Positions 8,341 through 17,001 of a DNA stretch of 35,073 bases are shown here, in pieces. The DNA lies in NCBI GenBank assembly GCA_031281085.1, contig JAITFW010000042.1:1-35073 (forward strand). Reading direction: 5' to 3'. A program made the position numbers and the translations under genes. Within the stretch, counting starts at the first letter, position 1, and every line of letters starts with the position of its first letter. The DNA comes from Chlamydiales bacterium. Its GTDB lineage: Bacteria > Chlamydiota > Chlamydiia > Chlamydiales > Rhabdochlamydiaceae. A model generated the notes under the pieces. That model searched no databases and was not told where the DNA came from. It saw only the letters and a list, made by a program, of their open reading frames with translations.

Positions 8341-9012
8341 TCAAATATTTTCTTGAAAGATCTGATTGATTTTTTCGTGCAAATCTTCTGATAAACTAAG
8401 GTTTTGAAGCTGAGAAAAGGTAGTTGCATAAGCCAATGTCAATAAGGTATTCCATTGATCTTGTGAAAATCTAAAAGAAAGTTTTGGTGCATGAAAATTA
8501 CAAAAACACTCTCCTTGATGAAGTGCCATTGCTTCTATTTCACATTGGCTACAAAAAGGTTGCAGGGCAAGCAACCCCTCCTGCTTGAGCAATTTTATAC
8601 AAAAGCTATTGGTTAAGATAGTGGTATCTTCAAAATAGGGGATAGCTCTCAAGCATTTATAGAAAAATTGATAGACTTTGGGAGCTGGTTTATGAGGCAG
8701 TTGAGAAGTTAATATGATTTGCACTAAGTTTGCTGCTGCTTGGATATGTTGCATTTTTGTGCGCAATTGTAGGTGCTCGTTTAAAACCGATCCATCTACA
8801 AAATGCATAAGATTGCTTTTGCCACGATAAAAAAGATATTCACCCTGACAAAGAAGGGAGCTTAACGCTAATTTATCCATTCTTTTAGCTGAGATACCTT
8901 TCATGATAAACTGTAAAACCCCGTAACAATGGGTAAAAATGGTGACGATTCGATTCTTATCTTGATAAGGTAGAGAACGTAAAACAATGCCTTCGGTCTT
9001 TTCATATTCCAT
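8341..9012 (-). CDS. recO: DNA repair protein RecO
   Basis: RecO works with RecR/RecF to load RecA onto SSB-coated single-stranded DNA in gap repair. The 223-residue protein begins with the typical OB-fold start (EKTEGIVLRSLPYQDKNRIV, then IFTHCYG and KGISAKR). A helical middle follows, then a C-terminal zinc-binding region with CSQCEIEAMALHQGECFC and CNFHAPKL. Length fits the family (220-245). It is upstream of and probably co-transcribed with the MFS transporter. C. trachomatis encodes recO as CT470 (from memory). Confidence 0.88.
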   Translation of the reverse strand: MEYEKTEGIVLRSLPYQDKNRIVTIFTHCYGVLQFIMKGISAKRMDKLALSSLLCQGEYLFYRGKSNLMHFVDGSVLNEHLQLRTKMQHIQAAANLVQIILTSQLPHKPAPKVYQFFYKCLRAIPYFEDTTILTNSFCIKLLKQEGLLALQPFCSQCEIEAMALHQGECFCNFHAPKLSFRFSQDQWNTLLTLAYATTFSQLQNLSLSEDLHEKINQIFQENI

Positions 9013-9180: not shown

Positions 9181-9527
9181 ATCTTTTTTAAAAGATTACA
9201 TGTTACAACTTTAGAAAATTTATGCGATAAAAGGGCACAAAATATCACAGAAGAAATCAATCTAACGTGATGCTCTCTTAAGCTTATGTAAAGTATAAAT
9301 GCCAATTGTTTTGCAGTAACCACTATTATTGTAGACTCCATAAATGCGTATTCAATCTTGATTTATACCTATTCTCAAGATGTATTTTTGCTAAAAGAAG
9401 AAATCTTTATGTGCTTGCTCATTTCTAAACAAAGATCTTTTGAACAACCACCTTCACGAATATTGATCATTTTAACTTGATAGAGATATAATCGAAATGT
9501 AATCGGTTTAACAGCATAAGAGGTATT
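9181..9527. other. Intergenic region before hpf
   Basis: No convincing gene is present. It holds the putative hpf promoter at its right end and a short AATCTTGATTTATAC element around 9355, resembling the AAATCTTGATTTGTACA sequence seen twice in the IS-debris regions. Confidence 0.5.
9463..9492 (+). promoter_or_regulatory. Putative promoter of the hpf operon
   Basis: TTGATC (9463-9468), 18 bases and a consensus TATAAT (9487-9492) lie 36 bases before the hpf ATG. This is the only good promoter seen ahead of the six-gene run to 15382. Confidence 0.5.
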
Positions 9528-10148
9528 ATGAACGACAAAAATAAATTTGAACAAGATCTTGGTTACCGTGTTGACATTATCGGGCGCCAAGTTCAAGTAA
9601 CCGATTCGATAAAGAACTACATTTGGAATAAACTTTTCAAAATTGAACGATTACATAATCACATCTTACATCTACATGTTACGTTAGAAGTTCATAAGGT
9701 TGAGCATATCTGTGTATTAATGGTCAAACTCGATCATCTTAAGATTAAAGCAAAAGCTACAAGTACAGATATGTACTTTTCCATTGATCAAGCAATGAAT
9801 CGGCTACATACTTTAATCTGTCGGTATAAAGATAAGATTCGGGATCATTACCAAAAGGTATCCTCAACCGTAGACATGGAGGTAGATATCTTTAAAAGAT
9901 CTGAAATAGATCAAATTAATACAGAAATAGAAGAGGAAAACCGAGAAAGAGAAATACAAGCTCTTTTGCCTCCTATGATTATTGATACAAAAGTGAAACC
10001 TCTGAAGACACTTAATATAGAAGAGGCTCTTATGAAAATAGATCTCTCTCAAGATCGGTTTTTGATTTTTCGCTCAGAAGAAGACCAGAAATTAAAAGTT
10101 CTCTATCGTCGTAAGGATGGTCATTATGGCCTCATTCGACCCGAATAG
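9528..10148 (+). CDS. hpf: Ribosome hibernation promoting factor, long form
   Basis: Long HPF binds the 30S decoding region and dimerises ribosomes into inactive 100S particles during slow growth. The 206-residue protein has an N-terminal S30AE domain (GRQVQVTDSIKNYIWNKL onward to about residue 110), an acidic charged linker (about 125-145) and a C-terminal dimerisation domain (about 155-205). The last ends in the family signature LKVLYRRKDGHYGLIRP. A GAGG precedes the ATG. In a chlamydial developmental cycle, ribosome silencing in the non-dividing form would be a sensible role (inference). The gene overlaps the next one by 23 bases. Confidence 0.92.
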   Translation: MNDKNKFEQDLGYRVDIIGRQVQVTDSIKNYIWNKLFKIERLHNHILHLHVTLEVHKVEHICVLMVKLDHLKIKAKATSTDMYFSIDQAMNRLHTLICRYKDKIRDHYQKVSSTVDMEVDIFKRSEIDQINTEIEEENREREIQALLPPMIIDTKVKPLKTLNIEEALMKIDLSQDRFLIFRSEEDQKLKVLYRRKDGHYGLIRPE

Positions 10149-10587
10149 AGATAAGCTTTTGCTTATTGACAAAATGCGTGGCGTTGCTATTCAAGCAACG
10201 CCTGAAGAAAAAATCAGACAAAAACTATTGAATCTTCTAATCGAAGAACTCTTTTTCCCTAAGGAATATGTCGTTGTGGAAAAGGCGCTTAGTGAGCTAC
10301 CCCACCTTCAAGGAAAGCGTGTACCAAAAAGGCGTCTTGATGTTTTATGCTATTTTCCTATGCACGACCAGCTTCTACCTTTATTGCTGATTGAATGTAA
10401 AAGAAGTGGAGGGATAAAACAAGCTTTAAACCAGGTAAGTGGATATAATTATTGGGTAGGAGCTCCCTTTGTCGCTGTAGCAAATCAAGAATGTATTTTA
10501 TTTAAATATTTGGATATAGCTTCAAATGAAATGGTTGTAAAAGAAGGTTTACCTTCGTACCAGGATTTAGTCGCATGTTGCAAATAG
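10126..10587 (+). CDS. HsdR N-terminal-like (PD-(D/E)xK fold) protein
   Basis: The 153-residue product matches the small stand-alone proteins annotated as type I restriction enzyme HsdR N-terminal domain (HSDR_N_2). Typical parts are TPEEKIRQKLLNLLIEEL, then KRRLDVLCYF with the active-site-type Asp, and LLLIECKRSGG with the ECK of a PD-(D/E)xK nuclease core, followed by QVSGYNYWVGAPFVAVAN. No helicase, HsdS or HsdM is next to it, so it is not a restriction system as such. Its role is unknown. I chose ATG 10126 over 10117 because AAGGATGG is then correctly spaced. The start overlaps hpf and the end overlaps the next gene by 13 bases, so translation is probably coupled. Confidence 0.78.
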   Translation: MASFDPNRDKLLLIDKMRGVAIQATPEEKIRQKLLNLLIEELFFPKEYVVVEKALSELPHLQGKRVPKRRLDVLCYFPMHDQLLPLLLIECKRSGGIKQALNQVSGYNYWVGAPFVAVANQECILFKYLDIASNEMVVKEGLPSYQDLVACCK

Positions 10588-12080
10588 TAAATAATCTGGA
10601 TCATTTAGAATCTGATGATACGGATGTTTTATCTGTATTTGGATTATCTCTACTTTCTCGTTTAGATAAATGGCTTTTAGAAAATCCCAAAAGATTCCTA
10701 GTTTGTATTGAAAAGGATCTGCAGACTTTTTTACAAGCTCAAGCTCATTTGCAAAATCCACAGATTAGATTGTATCATTGGGATTCCAATGTGAATTTAT
10801 GTCATAGAATGGTTTGGGAGTTTTGTCTTTTGCGTTTGACTCAAGTAGCTATAGATGAAGAAGAGCGTATTTTCTCCAAAATTCTTGAAGAAATGCATGT
10901 TCAAGTACACCTCTTGATTTCTGATTTTCGCGACTTAGGAGAACTTATCCTAGCTAACTTATTACAAAATACAAACCAAATGCCAATATCTCTTCTTGGG
11001 GAATCTTTAAAAAATTGCTGTCGTAATATACCTGCAATTATTTGTGGAGCAGGACCATCCTTAGATGGACAAATACCCATGCTTGTTCAAGCACAAGAGA
11101 AGGCTTTGTTATTTGGCGCAGGTTCTGCTATGTGTGCTTTGGAGACCCAAGGAGTTTACCCCCATTTTGGGGTCGCTTTTGATCCAGATCCTCCTCCTCA
11201 TCGATATTTAACCCAAATAGGCTATGAAACGCCTTATTTTTATCAGTCTAGGATCTCATCTAGACAGCTTGCTTCTTTACATGGCCAAAAACTATGGATG
11301 CCTGATTCAGATAATTACCCTTTAGAAAAATGGATTTATCAAGAGCTAGGTTTGAATTACCCATTCATGGATAGTGGGTTTACATCAGCTAATTTTTGTG
11401 CATTGATTGCGGCGCATTTAGGATGTAACCCCATTATCTGTGTAGGGATGGACTTTTGTTCTTCAAGCAATCGAGCCTATGCAGCAAGTATGCAAGCAGA
11501 TCAAGGGAATTGGGTGGAGTGTATGAATGCAAAAAAGGAAAAGAGAATCTCAAAACCAGATTGGCTAGCAAGTGCTTCTTGGTTAGATCAATTTGCTGAA
11601 AAAAATCAAGGGATCGAATGGATCTATACGGACCGAGAATCCATGACTTTAGAACATGTCAAATACCTTCCTTTGGAGCAAATTTCATGGCCAAGTGCTT
11701 TTGATACCCTCTCTTTTAGTTATGTGTTAACAGCTCAGGCAGCTAGGTCTGGAATTACCCAAGAAAGCGTAAGAGCGGTTTTGCATAGATTGGGTAATAG
11801 TTTTATAGAAGCGCTTGATCTGTGCAATCAATTACTAAAACTATGGGAGAAGCATTATCCGCGTTCTATTTTGGAAACAGGAGAACTTGCTCTATTAGAA
11901 TTTGATTTAGCACAAAACATTTGCGTACAGAAGCTTTTATTGCCGCTTTGGGAAATTTGGAAATGGCCTATTTTGAGACGAGAAGAGCATATTCCAACAA
12001 GAACTTTGCATCGGCATATATTTTTTAAAAAAGCAGTTGAAATCCATTTGTCTACTTTCAAGAGTTTAAAAATATGTTAA
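10575..12080 (+). CDS. DUF115 / MptE-like protein (first copy)
   Basis: This 501-residue protein contains a DUF115 core (6-hydroxymethylpterin diphosphokinase MptE-like; the fold also found in Maf glycosyltransferases). The key motif PAIICGAGPSLDG is at about 153-165. It is followed by LFGAGSAMCALETQGVYPHFGVAFDPDP and later by SGFTSANFCALIAAHLGCNPIICVGMDFC, the conserved GxD segment. The first 150 residues are not recognisable. In flagellated bacteria Maf proteins transfer nonulosonic sugars to flagellin; in archaea MptE makes a pterin precursor. Neither use is proven here. It overlaps both neighbours (13 bases with the nuclease-fold gene, 7 with the MORN gene) and has a paralogue two genes downstream. 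Confidence 0.82.
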   Translation: MLQIVNNLDHLESDDTDVLSVFGLSLLSRLDKWLLENPKRFLVCIEKDLQTFLQAQAHLQNPQIRLYHWDSNVNLCHRMVWEFCLLRLTQVAIDEEERIFSKILEEMHVQVHLLISDFRDLGELILANLLQNTNQMPISLLGESLKNCCRNIPAIICGAGPSLDGQIPMLVQAQEKALLFGAGSAMCALETQGVYPHFGVAFDPDPPPHRYLTQIGYETPYFYQSRISSRQLASLHGQKLWMPDSDNYPLEKWIYQELGLNYPFMDSGFTSANFCALIAAHLGCNPIICVGMDFCSSSNRAYAASMQADQGNWVECMNAKKEKRISKPDWLASASWLDQFAEKNQGIEWIYTDRESMTLEHVKYLPLEQISWPSAFDTLSFSYVLTAQAARSGITQESVRAVLHRLGNSFIEALDLCNQLLKLWEKHYPRSILETGELALLEFDLAQNICVQKLLLPLWEIWKWPILRREEHIPTRTLHRHIFFKKAVEIHLSTFKSLKIC

Positions 12081-12901
12081 AAGAAAATTATGTGTTCACT
12101 CAAGAGAAGTTAATGATATACGATGAAGAACTGGGATTGGATATTCAATATGAGCATTTCTGTCCTTATCTTCCTCCATCTCTTGAATCACCGAATCTAG
12201 TTCTCACAAATACTCAGGCTTACTTGATCCATGAAGGTAAACAACAAGGAGAGTGTCGTTGGTTTTTTGAAGATAGAACCTGTCAAGCAATTTTGTTTTA
12301 CGATCAAGGTCTTTTACACGGACCTTCTACTTTTTTTCATCCTCAAGGGCAAATTTTAACAAAGAGCTGGTACTACTTGGGTAAAAAAATAGGGAAAACG
12401 CGCTATTTTTACTCTTCTCAGAAACCAGCGAGTATACAGCGATTTATAGATGGGAAACCTGAAGGGTTGCAGGAGTACTTCTACGAAACAGGTGGTATTA
12501 AAAGCCACATTCCTTACCGCTTGCATCAATTAGATGGGCAGGTGCGTCTCTTTTGGGGATCAGGGTTGCTGAAGAGATCCATCGATTATCAACAGGGACA
12601 AAAACATGGCTGGGATCGACTTTGGAATGAGGAGCAGGTTCTTATAGACGAAGGTTGTTATGAAAAGGGAGAACCTATAGGAGTGCATCGCCATTTTTTC
12701 TGTAATCAGGTTTTGCGCGAGGAAAAAGTTTTTCATACGCCAAAGCGTTACGATTGTAAACGTTGGGATCAGAAAGGGCAGTTAATACTAGAAGGGGTTT
12801 ATATATCTGATAGCAATTATATAGAAAAAACCTACCATAATGCGCAAATGACTGCTTCAAAAGAGGGGAGATGGGATGGGAAAAAGCTTTGTTGGAAATA
12901 G
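12074..12901 (+). CDS. MORN_2 / YwqK-like repeat protein
   Basis: The 275-residue protein consists largely of repeated units of the type G-x-x-x-G-x-x-x-x-(F/Y)-(F/Y)...G, which are MORN_2 (YwqK-type) repeats. Examples are GKQQGECRWFFEDR, GLLHGPSTFFHPQGQI, GKPEGLQEYFYETGGI, GQKHGWDRLW and GEPIGVHRHFF. There are about seven units over residues 55-230. There is no signal peptide. MORN_2 proteins act as binding scaffolds or are of unknown function; some are annotated as antitoxins of YwqK type, which is not a reliable guide here. It lies between two DUF115 genes and overlaps both (7 bases and 26 bases), so the three products are probably made together. A partner or substrate role for the DUF115 proteins is inference. 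Confidence 0.78.
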   Translation: MLKENYVFTQEKLMIYDEELGLDIQYEHFCPYLPPSLESPNLVLTNTQAYLIHEGKQQGECRWFFEDRTCQAILFYDQGLLHGPSTFFHPQGQILTKSWYYLGKKIGKTRYFYSSQKPASIQRFIDGKPEGLQEYFYETGGIKSHIPYRLHQLDGQVRLFWGSGLLKRSIDYQQGQKHGWDRLWNEEQVLIDEGCYEKGEPIGVHRHFFCNQVLREEKVFHTPKRYDCKRWDQKGQLILEGVYISDSNYIEKTYHNAQMTASKEGRWDGKKLCWK

Positions 12902-14585
12902 TTCTTTAGATCTTTTAAGTGAAAGGTATCCAGAGCTTGTTTTTTTATTGAACTTCTCCAGCCCTTGTGAACCTTTATCTGAAGAGGAATTCATTCCAGA
13001 GTTTAGAGATGTTGAGGTTTTATATATTTATGGGATTACTGGGTCTAGTGCTTATCCTAGTTTAAAAAAGTGGGTTTTAGAAAAAAAAACGAGAAGAGTG
13101 GTCTTCTTAGAGGATTCGCTTCATGCAATAGAGAGCTTTTTATCTTTTATTTACAGTAAGCAAATCCTTCAAGATAGTCAAATGTCTCTATCCTATCTAG
13201 AAGAGCCTTATGCGAAAAAATTAGAAGAGATCGTATCTCATTATCCAGTAGAACATATTTTTATCCAAGCAACTCACTCTTATCGTAAAAAACCTCAATT
13301 TGAACAGTTGTGCTTACAACTCTTAAGGATTACAACTGTTGTACATGCAAGCACAACAGAGATTTTAAAGTCTCATCACATATTAGCAAATCTCATGAGG
13401 AATGTGTCTAGATGGCCTTATTCCTTTTTAGCTAATCGATTTCAAGGGCAGTTTGTAAATGTCCCTGCAATTATTTGTGGAGCAGGTCCTTCTTTATTAG
13501 ACGCAATAGGCTCTTTGAAGAGTCTAAGCGATCGGGCGCTGATTCTAGCAGGAGGATCAGCCATTGCTGCTTTGAGCAATCAAGGTGTGATTCCACATTT
13601 AAATGTAGTAGCTGATCCTAATTTTGAAGAATTTGAAAGACTAAAAACAGCATCTGCATATGAAGCACCGCTTATTTATGCAACCAGAGTGCATCCAGAT
13701 ATTTGGAATACGTGTAATGGGCAGATGGGGTATCTTGTTTCTGATACAGGAGGTGCTTGCGAAAAGTATTTTGAAAATCTGCTTGGAATAGATCATCAAG
13801 CAGTGGGACCTGATCTAGGGATAGAGGCCTTATCTGTAACTACCCTTAGCCTAGCCCTGGCTGTAGAAATGGGTTGTCATCCTATTGTTTTTGTTGGGGT
13901 AGATCTATCTTATACCGGTATGCAAAGATATGCAGAAAAAGTGATCTCTTATTCGGTTATTGATCCTAAAACACTAGAAAAGAATACGCAAGCCTCAGAA
14001 AAGCTTTTGCGTCGAAAGAATATTCAAGGAGAGCTTGTTTATACTACGGTAAAGTGGATCATGGAGTCAGAATGCATAGCTGCTTTTGTTAAAAAACATA
14101 CAAATTGCCGATTTATCAATGCAACGAGTGGGCTTGGGTTTGAAGGTGTAGAAAACTCTTCATTAGAAAAGATTGCTATGGATTGGAAACACATCGATTT
14201 ATACGCTGCTATTCATCAAAAAATGCAACTCTATCAATTAGACCCCAATCTTAGGAAAACCATTGCGTCTGAAAAGAAAAAACTTCGTTTAAGTGTTTTG
14301 CGCTTGCAAGAGATGACGTTACACATGTTAAGAATCATTGCCGAAGCTTTTACACAGGAAGTAAGTGTCCCCACTGCTAACATGATTTTATTGGAATTTG
14401 ATTTTCAAGAAGAACTTGCTTTAAATGCTTTATTTCCTTTTTTAGATTTAACGCTTGACCATCTATTAGATCCTTGTGGGAAACGAAAGAAAAGTGATAA
14501 AGAAATGCTTAAACATTTTTTAAAAAAGTATACCAGTTGGAAAGAAGTTTTAGAATATGTGGTTGAGCAAAATCTGATAGGGTAA
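12876..14585 (+). CDS. DUF115 / MptE-like protein (second copy)
   Basis: A 569-residue paralogue of the protein encoded at 10575-12080. The DUF115 core starts with VPAIICGAGPSLLD at about 197-210 and continues with LAGGSAIAALSNQGVIPHLNVVADPNFEE. Later it shows TTLSLALAVEMGCHPIVFVGVDLSYTG. Unlike the first copy it keeps an extended region after the core (AEKVISYSVIDPKTLEK onward) with a lysine-rich helical segment. The N-terminal 190 residues are not recognised. The ATG is preceded by GAGGGGAG. The pairing of two divergent copies suggests different acceptors or a heteromer (inference). The exact reaction, glycosyl transfer or pterin-type diphosphate transfer, cannot be decided from sequence. 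Confidence 0.82.
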   Translation: MGKSFVGNSSLDLLSERYPELVFLLNFSSPCEPLSEEEFIPEFRDVEVLYIYGITGSSAYPSLKKWVLEKKTRRVVFLEDSLHAIESFLSFIYSKQILQDSQMSLSYLEEPYAKKLEEIVSHYPVEHIFIQATHSYRKKPQFEQLCLQLLRITTVVHASTTEILKSHHILANLMRNVSRWPYSFLANRFQGQFVNVPAIICGAGPSLLDAIGSLKSLSDRALILAGGSAIAALSNQGVIPHLNVVADPNFEEFERLKTASAYEAPLIYATRVHPDIWNTCNGQMGYLVSDTGGACEKYFENLLGIDHQAVGPDLGIEALSVTTLSLALAVEMGCHPIVFVGVDLSYTGMQRYAEKVISYSVIDPKTLEKNTQASEKLLRRKNIQGELVYTTVKWIMESECIAAFVKKHTNCRFINATSGLGFEGVENSSLEKIAMDWKHIDLYAAIHQKMQLYQLDPNLRKTIASEKKKLRLSVLRLQEMTLHMLRIIAEAFTQEVSVPTANMILLEFDFQEELALNALFPFLDLTLDHLLDPCGKRKKSDKEMLKHFLKKYTSWKEVLEYVVEQNLIG

Positions 14586-14587
14586 GG

Positions 14588-15382
14588 ATGAAACAAGGGA
14601 TCCTCTTACTACTTTTGATAGGATGCTCTGGCATGGAGCAATCAGAGCAGAAAAAACTACGCAGGTTAAATGCTAAGGGTGAATTTATTCACCGCAATCA
14701 CGATGAATATCATTATCAGATCGATACTCCCAAACATAGAATAAGAGAGCCGTATCCATGGGAAAATGGATACGTAGGGCAGCAGGCTAAGATCACGAAA
14801 GAATATTTTCGCTGTAAAGGTTCAGGATTCAACCCTCCACGAAGCAAAGGGGATCAAATCTACTTTGATTGTGATGGGTGTCACACACACTCTCTTCCAA
14901 TACATCGAGGCAAAGAATTTATCTATCCTATTTTGGTAGATCTTTTGAACTTTGTGCAAGAAAAAACCCGTTCTAAAGTAGTCATTACCTGTGGGCATCG
15001 CTGCCCTGCTCACAATGCCTATGCCGATAGCTTGAATGCTACTTCCAAACACATGATTGGTGCAGAAGTAGACTTTTATGTGGAAGGGATGCAAGAGCAC
15101 CCGGAGCAGATCATTGCTATTTTGCAGCAATATTATCAGGAAAATTCCTATAGTCAAGAATATCTAGAGTTTGAAAGATCTTATCATCATTTAGATGTAT
15201 CTGTACCTGCATGGTATAATAAAGAGATTTTGATTCAACTCTACCAGAGAAAAGAAGGGCGTGATTATGATAACCAACACGAATATCCTTATATCTGTAT
15301 CCAAGTTCGTTATGATGAAGAAGCAAAGGAAAGAGTGATTTACAGTTGGCCTAGGGCTTTTAAGGGGTTTAGGCGTTATTAA
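14588..15382 (+). CDS. Predicted lipoprotein with M15-type peptidase fold
   Basis: The 264-residue product begins with a short hydrophobic signal ending in a lipobox (LLIGC, Cys13), so it is predicted to be lipid-anchored and face the periplasm. Residues about 130-205 resemble zinc D-Ala-D-Ala carboxypeptidases of family M15. ITCGHRCPAHNAYAD is followed by SKHMIGAEVDFYV, giving His155 and Asp162 of the SxHxxGxAxD motif, and HHLD at 200-203 would supply the third ligand His201. A Cys-rich stretch (FRCKGSG... FDCDGCHTH, residues 76-101) is unusual. Such enzymes cut peptidoglycan stem peptides, relevant because Chlamydiae make little or modified peptidoglycan. It starts 2 bases after the upstream DUF115 stop and is the last gene of the run. 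Confidence 0.8.
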   Translation: MKQGILLLLLIGCSGMEQSEQKKLRRLNAKGEFIHRNHDEYHYQIDTPKHRIREPYPWENGYVGQQAKITKEYFRCKGSGFNPPRSKGDQIYFDCDGCHTHSLPIHRGKEFIYPILVDLLNFVQEKTRSKVVITCGHRCPAHNAYADSLNATSKHMIGAEVDFYVEGMQEHPEQIIAILQQYYQENSYSQEYLEFERSYHHLDVSVPAWYNKEILIQLYQRKEGRDYDNQHEYPYICIQVRYDEEAKERVIYSWPRAFKGFRRY

Positions 15383-15900: not shown

Positions 15901-16124
15901 TCTTTCTTAACCGTCTTTAGCTTTTTTCTCTTGAGTAATCTTTTGCTCCTTCTGTGTCTCTTAACTGCTGCTCTTGTAACTTGCGCCTGCAGAAAGAGCT
16001 CTTCCGTGTCCTCTGCGATATGCTTTTTTCTGCCTTTGATTTTCTTTCCACCGTCATATCCATAGAGCTCCCTTTTTCTTCTGTTTTCACGCTCTGACCG
16101 TTTATGATTGCTCCTCTTGCTCAA
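15864..16124 (-). pseudogene. IS5-family transposase remnant
   Basis: The 86-codon frame encodes YGYDGGKKIKGRKKHIAEDT, a hallmark of IS5-group DDE transposases, followed by a degraded RSKRLLKRKKLKTVKKEWADC that matches the usual LLxRLKxxxKxxWADxGY segment. Both ends of the normal protein (about 250-300 residues) are missing and the middle is frameshift-scrambled. It overlaps the 3' end of the HAD phosphatase gene by 23 bases. Confidence 0.8.
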
Positions 16125-16863
16125 GCTTTCTTTCCGAGAAATTCTCGCTTTGTCTCCTTCGCTTTATCATGCTTCTTCTCAAATACTCTTCGCTTTCACC
16201 ACATGCGTTTAAACAAATATGATCGATTCTATCTATATGAATAAACCCCTTAATTTCTCCTGGGCGTGTAGGAGTTACAAGAACCGCTTCTACTTTAGCT
16301 GCCTGTAATGCACGAATACCCTTTAACGTATCTTCAAACCCAATGATCCTCTCTTTTCTACCTAGTTGTTCTATCGCTTGCAAATACCCATCAGGAGCTG
16401 GCTTAGCTAATGGATAATCCTCGCGGGTTACCCAAAGAGGGATGACATTTAAAATAGGAAGGGTTTTGCAAATAAGCTCCACTTGAGAGCGTACAGAATT
16501 TGTTACAACTGCAGACAGCACATTACTCATAGCTAATGCCTGTAAAAGAGCATGAACTCCTGGCATAAGCTGTAAAATAGAGGTCTTTAGCAGCTCTTGG
16601 TAAATCTCTTTTTTTTCTTGATATAGCACCTCTTTTGACTTTTTTTTAAATAAAGAGGGAAACTCTTTTTGAAACGCTTTCCAAATCCCAAAGGCGCTTG
16701 CATGTGCCTCCTCGCAGAAACGAACAAAATCCCAATTCAGATGAATCCGATTTTTAGAACACATTTCCTTGTAGGCAAGAAAATGTAAGGGCTCTGTGTC
16801 TACAAGTAGGCCATCAAAGTCAAAGAAAATAATATCATAGGAAGAAAGGAATTTTTTAAACAT
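16102..16863 (-). CDS. gph: HAD-superfamily phosphatase (phosphoglycolate-type)
   Basis: A cytoplasmic HAD-type sugar-phosphate or phosphoglycolate phosphatase of 253 residues. Motif I is FFDFDGLLVDTEP (nucleophile Asp15, Asp17), motif II is AVVTNSV, the conserved Lys is in PLAKPAPDGYL and motif IV is GFEDTLKGIRA. The long helical cap between motifs I and II puts it with the beta-phosphoglucomutase/Gph type; substrate is not certain. The open frame extends upstream through the tRNA-Leu gene, but that part is only the translated tRNA, so I start at ATG 16863, nine bases after the tRNA. The last 20 or so residues (RRRQSENFSERKLEQEEQS) are basic/acidic low-complexity sequence next to the IS5 remnant and may have been altered by the insertion. 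It matches CT464 in position. Confidence 0.85.
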   Translation of the reverse strand: MFKKFLSSYDIIFFDFDGLLVDTEPLHFLAYKEMCSKNRIHLNWDFVRFCEEAHASAFGIWKAFQKEFPSLFKKKSKEVLYQEKKEIYQELLKTSILQLMPGVHALLQALAMSNVLSAVVTNSVRSQVELICKTLPILNVIPLWVTREDYPLAKPAPDGYLQAIEQLGRKERIIGFEDTLKGIRALQAAKVEAVLVTPTRPGEIKGFIHIDRIDHICLNACGESEEYLRRSMIKRRRQSENFSERKLEQEEQS

Positions 16864-16872
16864 ATTTATGAA

Positions 16873-16955
16873 TACCGACGACTGGACTCGAACCAGCACT
16901 TTATTGCTAAAAGTAGATTTTGAGTCTACCGCGTCTACCATTCCGCCACATCGGC
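16873..16955 (-). tRNA. tRNA-Leu (anticodon CAA)
   Basis: An 83-base class II tRNA. The acceptor stem GCCGATG pairs with CGTCGGT and the discriminator is A. The D-arm contains GGCGGAATGGTAGACGC. The anticodon stem GTAGA/TCTAC encloses CTCAAAA (anticodon CAA, Leu TTG). A variable arm and a GGTTCGAGTCC T-arm follow. CCA is not encoded. It lies between acnA and gph, nine bases before the gph start on the same strand. Confidence 0.95.
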
Positions 16956-17001
16956 ATATAGGTAACAGTGTAAGGAAAATTGCAGATAAATACAAGACTT
17001 C

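Follow-up and report, generated by a model that had tools for sequence, protein, structure and literature searches.

We describe a gene module of chlamydia-like bacteria that codes for a pair of Maf-like DUF115 proteins, dufA and dufB, and an intervening MORN_2 repeat protein. It lies within a six-gene operon in a 35,073-nucleotide stretch of DNA (contig JAITFW010000042.1 of assembly GCA_031281085.1; hereinafter the window) from a Chlamydiales bacterium of the Rhabdochlamydiaceae. We propose, with a probability of about one half, that dufA, MORN and dufB constitute a flagellin-independent, cytoplasmic protein glycosylation module of the Maf type, with the cytidine monophosphate-activated (CMP) sugar CMP-Kdo (Kdo, 3-deoxy-D-manno-oct-2-ulosonic acid) as its likeliest donor. 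The genes of the operon are:

9528–10148, plus strand: hpf, long-form ribosome hibernation factor, the first gene of the operon
10126–10587, plus strand: HsdR_N, stand-alone PD-(D/E)XK nuclease-like domain of 153 aa
10575–12080, plus strand: dufA, Maf-like DUF115 protein of 501 aa
12074–12901, plus strand: MORN, MORN_2 repeat protein of 275 aa
12876–14585, plus strand: dufB, Maf-like DUF115 protein of 569 aa
14588–15382, plus strand: M15, M15-type zinc peptidase lipoprotein with the lipobox LIGC

Both DUF115 proteins match PF01973 (MptE-like/DUF115, MAF_flag10) with E-values of 2.3e-32 (dufA) and 4.9e-32 (dufB), the pair scoring 112.5 and 111.5 bits as compared to a cut-off of 34.6, and they are mutually homologous over 493 columns (E = 2e-102). 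Their AlphaFold models (predicted local distance difference test scores of 91.2 for dufA and 94.4 for dufB) recover the Maf protein 5mu5 as the top PDB match in Foldseek searches, with E = 1.2e-18 and a template modeling (TM) score of 0.56 over 533 columns for dufA, and E = 1.9e-18 and a TM score of 0.52 over 662 columns for dufB. This whole-chain fold match of the predicted structures bears out the Maf-like character that an earlier note on this DNA had given to both proteins. The second-best structural match to both models is the archaeal HPPK 8sd5, which aligns with the core domain only, and the human sialyltransferase ST8SiaIII is a weak match ranked after HPPK and, for dufA, after SteA. 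Profile searches against the PDB likewise place 5mu5 first and HPPK next, the dufA profile additionally retrieving Cst-II, though with an E of about 0.07–0.09 that is not significant. The GAGPS motif is near invariant in both proteins across divergent genomes, as are several acidic residues, namely D203, D293 and D329 of dufA and D247 and D343 of dufB.

Maf enzymes are known from flagellin. The closest known counterparts of dufA and dufB are the Maf/PseD flagellin glycosyltransferases (Aeromonas Maf1, Campylobacter Maf4, Clostridium botulinum Maf and the M. magneticum Maf of structure 5mu5), with which they share the PF01973 core flanked by an N-terminal Rossmann-like and a C-terminal helical domain, the GxGPS motif and the lack of an apparent signal sequence. 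In contrast to these, the chlamydial proteins usually come as a paralogous pair or triplet accompanied by an overlapping or fused MORN_2 component, and the genome that carries the window has neither a flagellin nor a nonulosonic acid synthase.

The gene order was compared across loci drawn from the DUF115-bearing genomes of the order together with 79 named public-genome loci, in all 108 distinct loci, and profile counts were taken over 105 genomes of the order. PF01973 is present in 71 of these genomes, mostly as a close pair, and the DUF115 block is spread over most families of chlamydia-like bacteria. Among the distinct loci the recurrent order is hpf–HsdR_N–dufA–(MORN)–dufB, most commonly laid out as hpf–HsdR_N–dufA–MORN–dufB, followed by M15 in some loci and not in others, or as the same arrangement lacking MORN. 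The junctions are equally persistent, with overlaps between HsdR_N and dufA in 59 of 61 cases, between dufA and MORN in 37 of 43 and between MORN and dufB in 45 of 47. As the order and the overlaps recur in dozens of genomes, the arrangement goes beyond chance, in keeping with the conserved gene system that the note had anticipated. Its extent, however, has to be redrawn: of the six genes it had joined into one system, dufA, MORN and dufB stand as a module, whereas hpf and HsdR_N form a pair of their own and M15 is loosely linked.

The MORN protein matches PF07661 (MORN_2) with 34 bits (E = 1.9e-08), and its autocorrelation peaks at an offset of 24, giving a repeat period of 24 residues. Its gene is fused to dufA in five loci (L048, L049, L093, L098 and L116) and to dufB in one (L123), and large DUF115~MORN fusions occur in many Parachlamydiaceae- and Waddlia-like genomes. 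A 977-aa protein in L128 carries two DUF115 cores, and between them these fusions connect dufA, MORN and dufB. Lone fusions in metagenome assemblies may represent sequencing errors; the dufA~MORN form nonetheless recurs across five assemblies, and many contain the large fusions. This repeated fusion ties MORN functionally to the DUF115 pair, as the note had supposed in grouping them. Since MORN is fused to the C-terminus of the enzyme, the architecture rather favors a function as adaptor or scaffold, although the repeats might also serve as the acceptor.

Two versions of the module can be distinguished. In version 1, seen in the window's own family (f1), f3, f23, f29 and others, the DUF115 proteins form a pair of about 400–690 aa each and MORN is usually a separate gene. 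Version 2 (families f19, f8, f21 and others) has two or three proteins, many of them 700–1035 aa long, with C-terminal MORN repeats; the assignment of f19 and f21 as Parachlamydiaceae-/Waddlia-like, like that of f7 as Chlamydiaceae, is inferred, partly from named loci. In a tree that has no outgroup and whose bootstrap is not fully settled, dufB of version 1 falls into a single clade (17 rows, support 100/100), separate from the version 2 proteins. The large DUF115~MORN clusters of the Parachlamydiaceae- and Waddlia-like genomes share the fold family and the repeat partner with the window's module and often occupy the same genomic place, after hpf–HsdR_N; they differ in consisting of two or three proteins of about 600–1035 aa and in residing in genomes with NeuB and a second CMP-sugar synthetase. 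Directly 5′ of these large genes lies a gene for a small protein, helical and about 145 aa long (cluster c19; L053, 6326–6817), with homologues in L054, L055, L056, L061, L144 and L146 and a conserved basic C-terminal tail of the form KKFKxLGGxxxWxPL. It has no match in Pfam or NCBIfam and is possibly a chaperone or an acceptor.

The genome with the window (G000; chlamydial, 1.30 Mb, 97.9% complete) yields no flagellin in a genome-wide profile search, and flagellin exceeds the cut-off in only 3 of the 105 genomes, against a flagellar role of the module. None of the 10 genomes in the window's family, G000 included, has NeuB (the NeuB/PseI/LegI synthase); thus the remark in the note that no flagellar or sugar-synthesis genes are seen holds genome-wide in G000 for flagellin and the nonulosonic acid synthase. 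Elsewhere NeuB is strong in 33 of the 105 genomes, 31 of which carry DUF115, and the NeuB-type genes accompanying version 2 score as neuraminate/pseudaminate synthases, with one above the PseI cut-off. The longest DUF115 open reading frame (ORF) has a median length of 930 aa in NeuB genomes as compared to 577 aa in NeuB-less ones, and ORFs of at least 700 aa occur in 19 of 31 NeuB genomes versus none of 39 NeuB-less genomes, counts that follow family lines and are descriptive. Counting matches of at least 80 bits, 39 of the 40 NeuB-less DUF115 genomes have just one strong CMP-sugar synthetase, and the one true synthetase of the window's genome is identifiable as KdsB. A class scoring 80–140 bits is found in 30 of the 31 NeuB-positive DUF115 genomes and is missing from the NeuB-less ones. 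As the window's lineage has neither a nonulosonic acid synthase nor a second CMP-sugar synthetase, CMP-Kdo is the likeliest candidate donor there and in version 1 at large. There is biochemical precedence for such usage, in that two Maf enzymes take CMP-Kdo when their native donor is absent (PMC11339370).

Accordingly, by analogy to Maf we infer a glycosyltransferase activity for dufA and dufB. They would be three-domain cytoplasmic enzymes, in which a core resembling CMP-sugar transferases lies between a Rossmann-like N-terminal and a helical C-terminal domain, and they might move an ulosonic acid from a CMP-sugar, here CMP-Kdo, to serine or threonine residues of a protein. This transfer would take place in the cytoplasm before export, as Maf1 glycosylates flagellin in the cytoplasm ahead of its export (PMC4065374). 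The MORN_2 repeats may act as the adaptor or scaffold in a predicted complex with the DUF115 proteins, and our guess for the acceptor is a secreted or type III-exported protein. The surface or envelope modification suggested in the note is a possibility. More tentatively, we conceive of the module as a Kdo-based protein O-glycosylation system derived from an ancestral flagellin machine that lost both flagellin and nonulosonic acid, was rewired to CMP-Kdo from lipopolysaccharide (LPS) synthesis and employs a MORN adaptor, with a type III-secreted or surface protein as its possible target; this fuller scenario is rather unlikely to hold in all its parts. If functional, the module would represent a cytoplasmic protein glycosylation in Chlamydiota that we found described in no paper of the open-access literature, in which a search on DUF115 or nonulosonic acids in Chlamydiae likewise returned nothing relevant. 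It would bring a new partner, the MORN repeats, perhaps a new physiological donor, Kdo, and, if the proposal is true, a connection of protein modification with the supply of LPS sugar that can be put to the test.

Several observations weigh against this proposal. The two proteins reach 47.2 and 28.2 bits with the NCBIfam Maf/PseD model, far below its cut-off of 670, and the likeness of the core fold to the archaeal HPPK leaves another nucleotide-linked substrate possible. In 21 distinct loci no MORN gene separates dufA from dufB, so it is not always needed. The case for Kdo is built on the lack of any other CMP-ulosonate and on a precedent that is heterologous, and one genome (G072) is NeuB-less yet has a second synthetase. 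Finally, the association of NeuB with DUF115 follows family lines, so that its Fisher p of 4e-5 exaggerates how independent it is.

A rival reading, which we consider possible but improbable, is that these Maf-type transferases draw on a scavenged nonulosonic acid or a nucleotide sugar other than CMP-Kdo. Since the same fold is used by the sister group, whose genomes have NeuB and a second CMP-sugar synthetase, a nonulosonic acid was probably the donor ancestrally, and the second synthetase retained by G072 without NeuB would suit a scavenged donor. However, with no second synthetase in 39 of the 40 NeuB-less genomes, scavenged sialic acid could not be activated there by a known enzyme. More doubtful is the idea that the DUF115 and MORN proteins are a non-catalytic leftover of ancestral flagellin glycosylation. 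The inference of flagella in the last common chlamydial ancestor (PMC9816063) and the faster evolution of dufA relative to dufB (mean column identity of 34% vs 37%) would both fit such decay. Against it, GAGPS and several acidic residues stay near invariant over very divergent genomes and the overlapping gene order persists in small genomes, which together argue for selection on function.

The note had offered a pterin-type diphosphotransferase pair as a second reading, that is, pterin diphosphokinases (MptE/HPPK-like) serving folate synthesis, to which the Pfam name MptE-like and the rank of HPPK 8sd5 as second-best structural match lend some color. The archaeal MptE/HPPK proteins indeed share the core nucleotide-binding domain and GAGPS with dufA and dufB, but they are small single-domain proteins of the pterin pathway, about 220–240 aa long, HPPK corresponding to the core only, whereas the three-domain dufA and dufB match Maf over all domains. 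Moreover, G000 already encodes FolK and FolP as a fusion, with a DHFR-like ORF after it. Of 20 relatives searched, 16 have neither HPPK nor DHPS, and the DUF115 pair is present in at least six of these (G025, G057, G063, G038, G086 and G096), three of which belong to the window's genus. With the distribution of the folate pathway and the domain architecture both speaking against it, we dropped this reading as very improbable.

The first two genes of the operon belong to a different unit. The hpf product has both domains of the long form, S30AE (PF02482; 62 bits, 8.5e-17) and S30AE_C (PF16321; 65 bits, 6.1e-18), and scores 65 bits with TIGR00741 as compared to a cut-off of 40.9. HsdR_N matches HSDR_N_2 (PF13588; 49 bits, 7.5e-13), and its PD-(D/E)XK residues D72, E90-x-K92 and Q103 are invariant among 18 homologues. 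These catalytic residues are common to the HSDR_N_2 domain of type I restriction enzymes; unlike HsdR, however, the 153-aa protein stands alone in a housekeeping locus, with no helicase domain and no HsdM or HsdS among the neighboring genes scanned. HsdR_N is found in 91 of the 105 genomes, including Chlamydiaceae without DUF115, as compared to 71 for DUF115, and in G043 the two are far apart. Thus, hpf–HsdR_N is a pair that is nearly universal in chlamydiae and can be separated from the DUF115 module, and we rejected the two genes as parts of a glycosylation machine. The overlapping pair is seen in almost all Chlamydiota, Chlamydiaceae included, with the overlap itself in 59 of 76 distinct loci; it would tie a nuclease-like domain to ribosome hibernation. 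In a Chlamydiaceae-like genome (L170, 4712–5383) hpf has diverged strongly, with S30AE barely at the cut-off (23.7 bits) and S30AE_C kept.

The intact nuclease residues of HsdR_N, together with the frequent naming of MORN_2 proteins as YwqK-family antitoxins, could suggest a defense or toxin–antitoxin system, but we give this very little credence, since PADLOC is essentially silent on the operon (HsdR_N weakly matches methyltransferase models, and the remaining five proteins have no hit) and HsdR_N, unlike mobile defense genes, is present in almost all genomes, including the Chlamydiaceae that lack the module. As regards a YwqK-type antitoxin, the MORN_2 repeats are present; Pfam and PADLOC find no toxin family in the operon, and the partners of the repeats are DUF115 proteins.

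At the other end of the operon, the M15 product passes the Peptidase_M15_3 (PF08291) cut-off narrowly (23.4 vs 23.2 bits), and a profile search against solved structures found no related structure. The zinc-site motif SxHxxGxxxD...H is present in the window's protein; in the alignment its histidine is replaced in L049 and L051. The gene is often nearby, but no more than 11 of 44 loci have it within 30 nucleotides of dufB; this adjacency is a feature of the window's genus and some few relatives, not a general one. M15 is hence a neighbor, and we excluded it as a core member. With this match, the family assignments made for all six genes in the note stand above their Pfam cut-offs.

All six ORFs lie on the plus strand as described there, with successive overlaps of 23, 13, 7 and 26 bases and a 2-base gap before M15. 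Upstream lie two further features:

9463–9492, plus strand: candidate promoter TTGATC-18-TATAAT, 5′ of hpf, with 10/12 consensus matches
8341–9012, minus strand: recO (PF11967 and PF02565), a conserved neighbor at the edge of the chlamydial core locus

A single promoter for the operon, as the note had it, is no more than plausible given this weak candidate; promoter-like sites as such are not enriched in the region (17 found vs 21.9 expected from shuffled sequence). The core locus is flanked by recO on one side, the recO-matching neighbor cluster c3 occurring in 77 loci, and in many lineages by genes for a sigma-54 activator and a histidine kinase on the other. Two Chlamydiaceae genomes have this core locus with HsdR_N and without the DUF115 module; that Chlamydiaceae lack the module clearly sets this lineage apart. 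The surroundings in the window include, besides recO, tRNAs, a major facilitator superfamily transporter, 2-oxoglutarate dehydrogenase genes, aconitase and truA/ispD. A HAD-family ORF on the minus strand (16102–16995), called from a TTG, overruns the same-strand tRNA-Leu at 16872–16956, so its true start is probably downstream.

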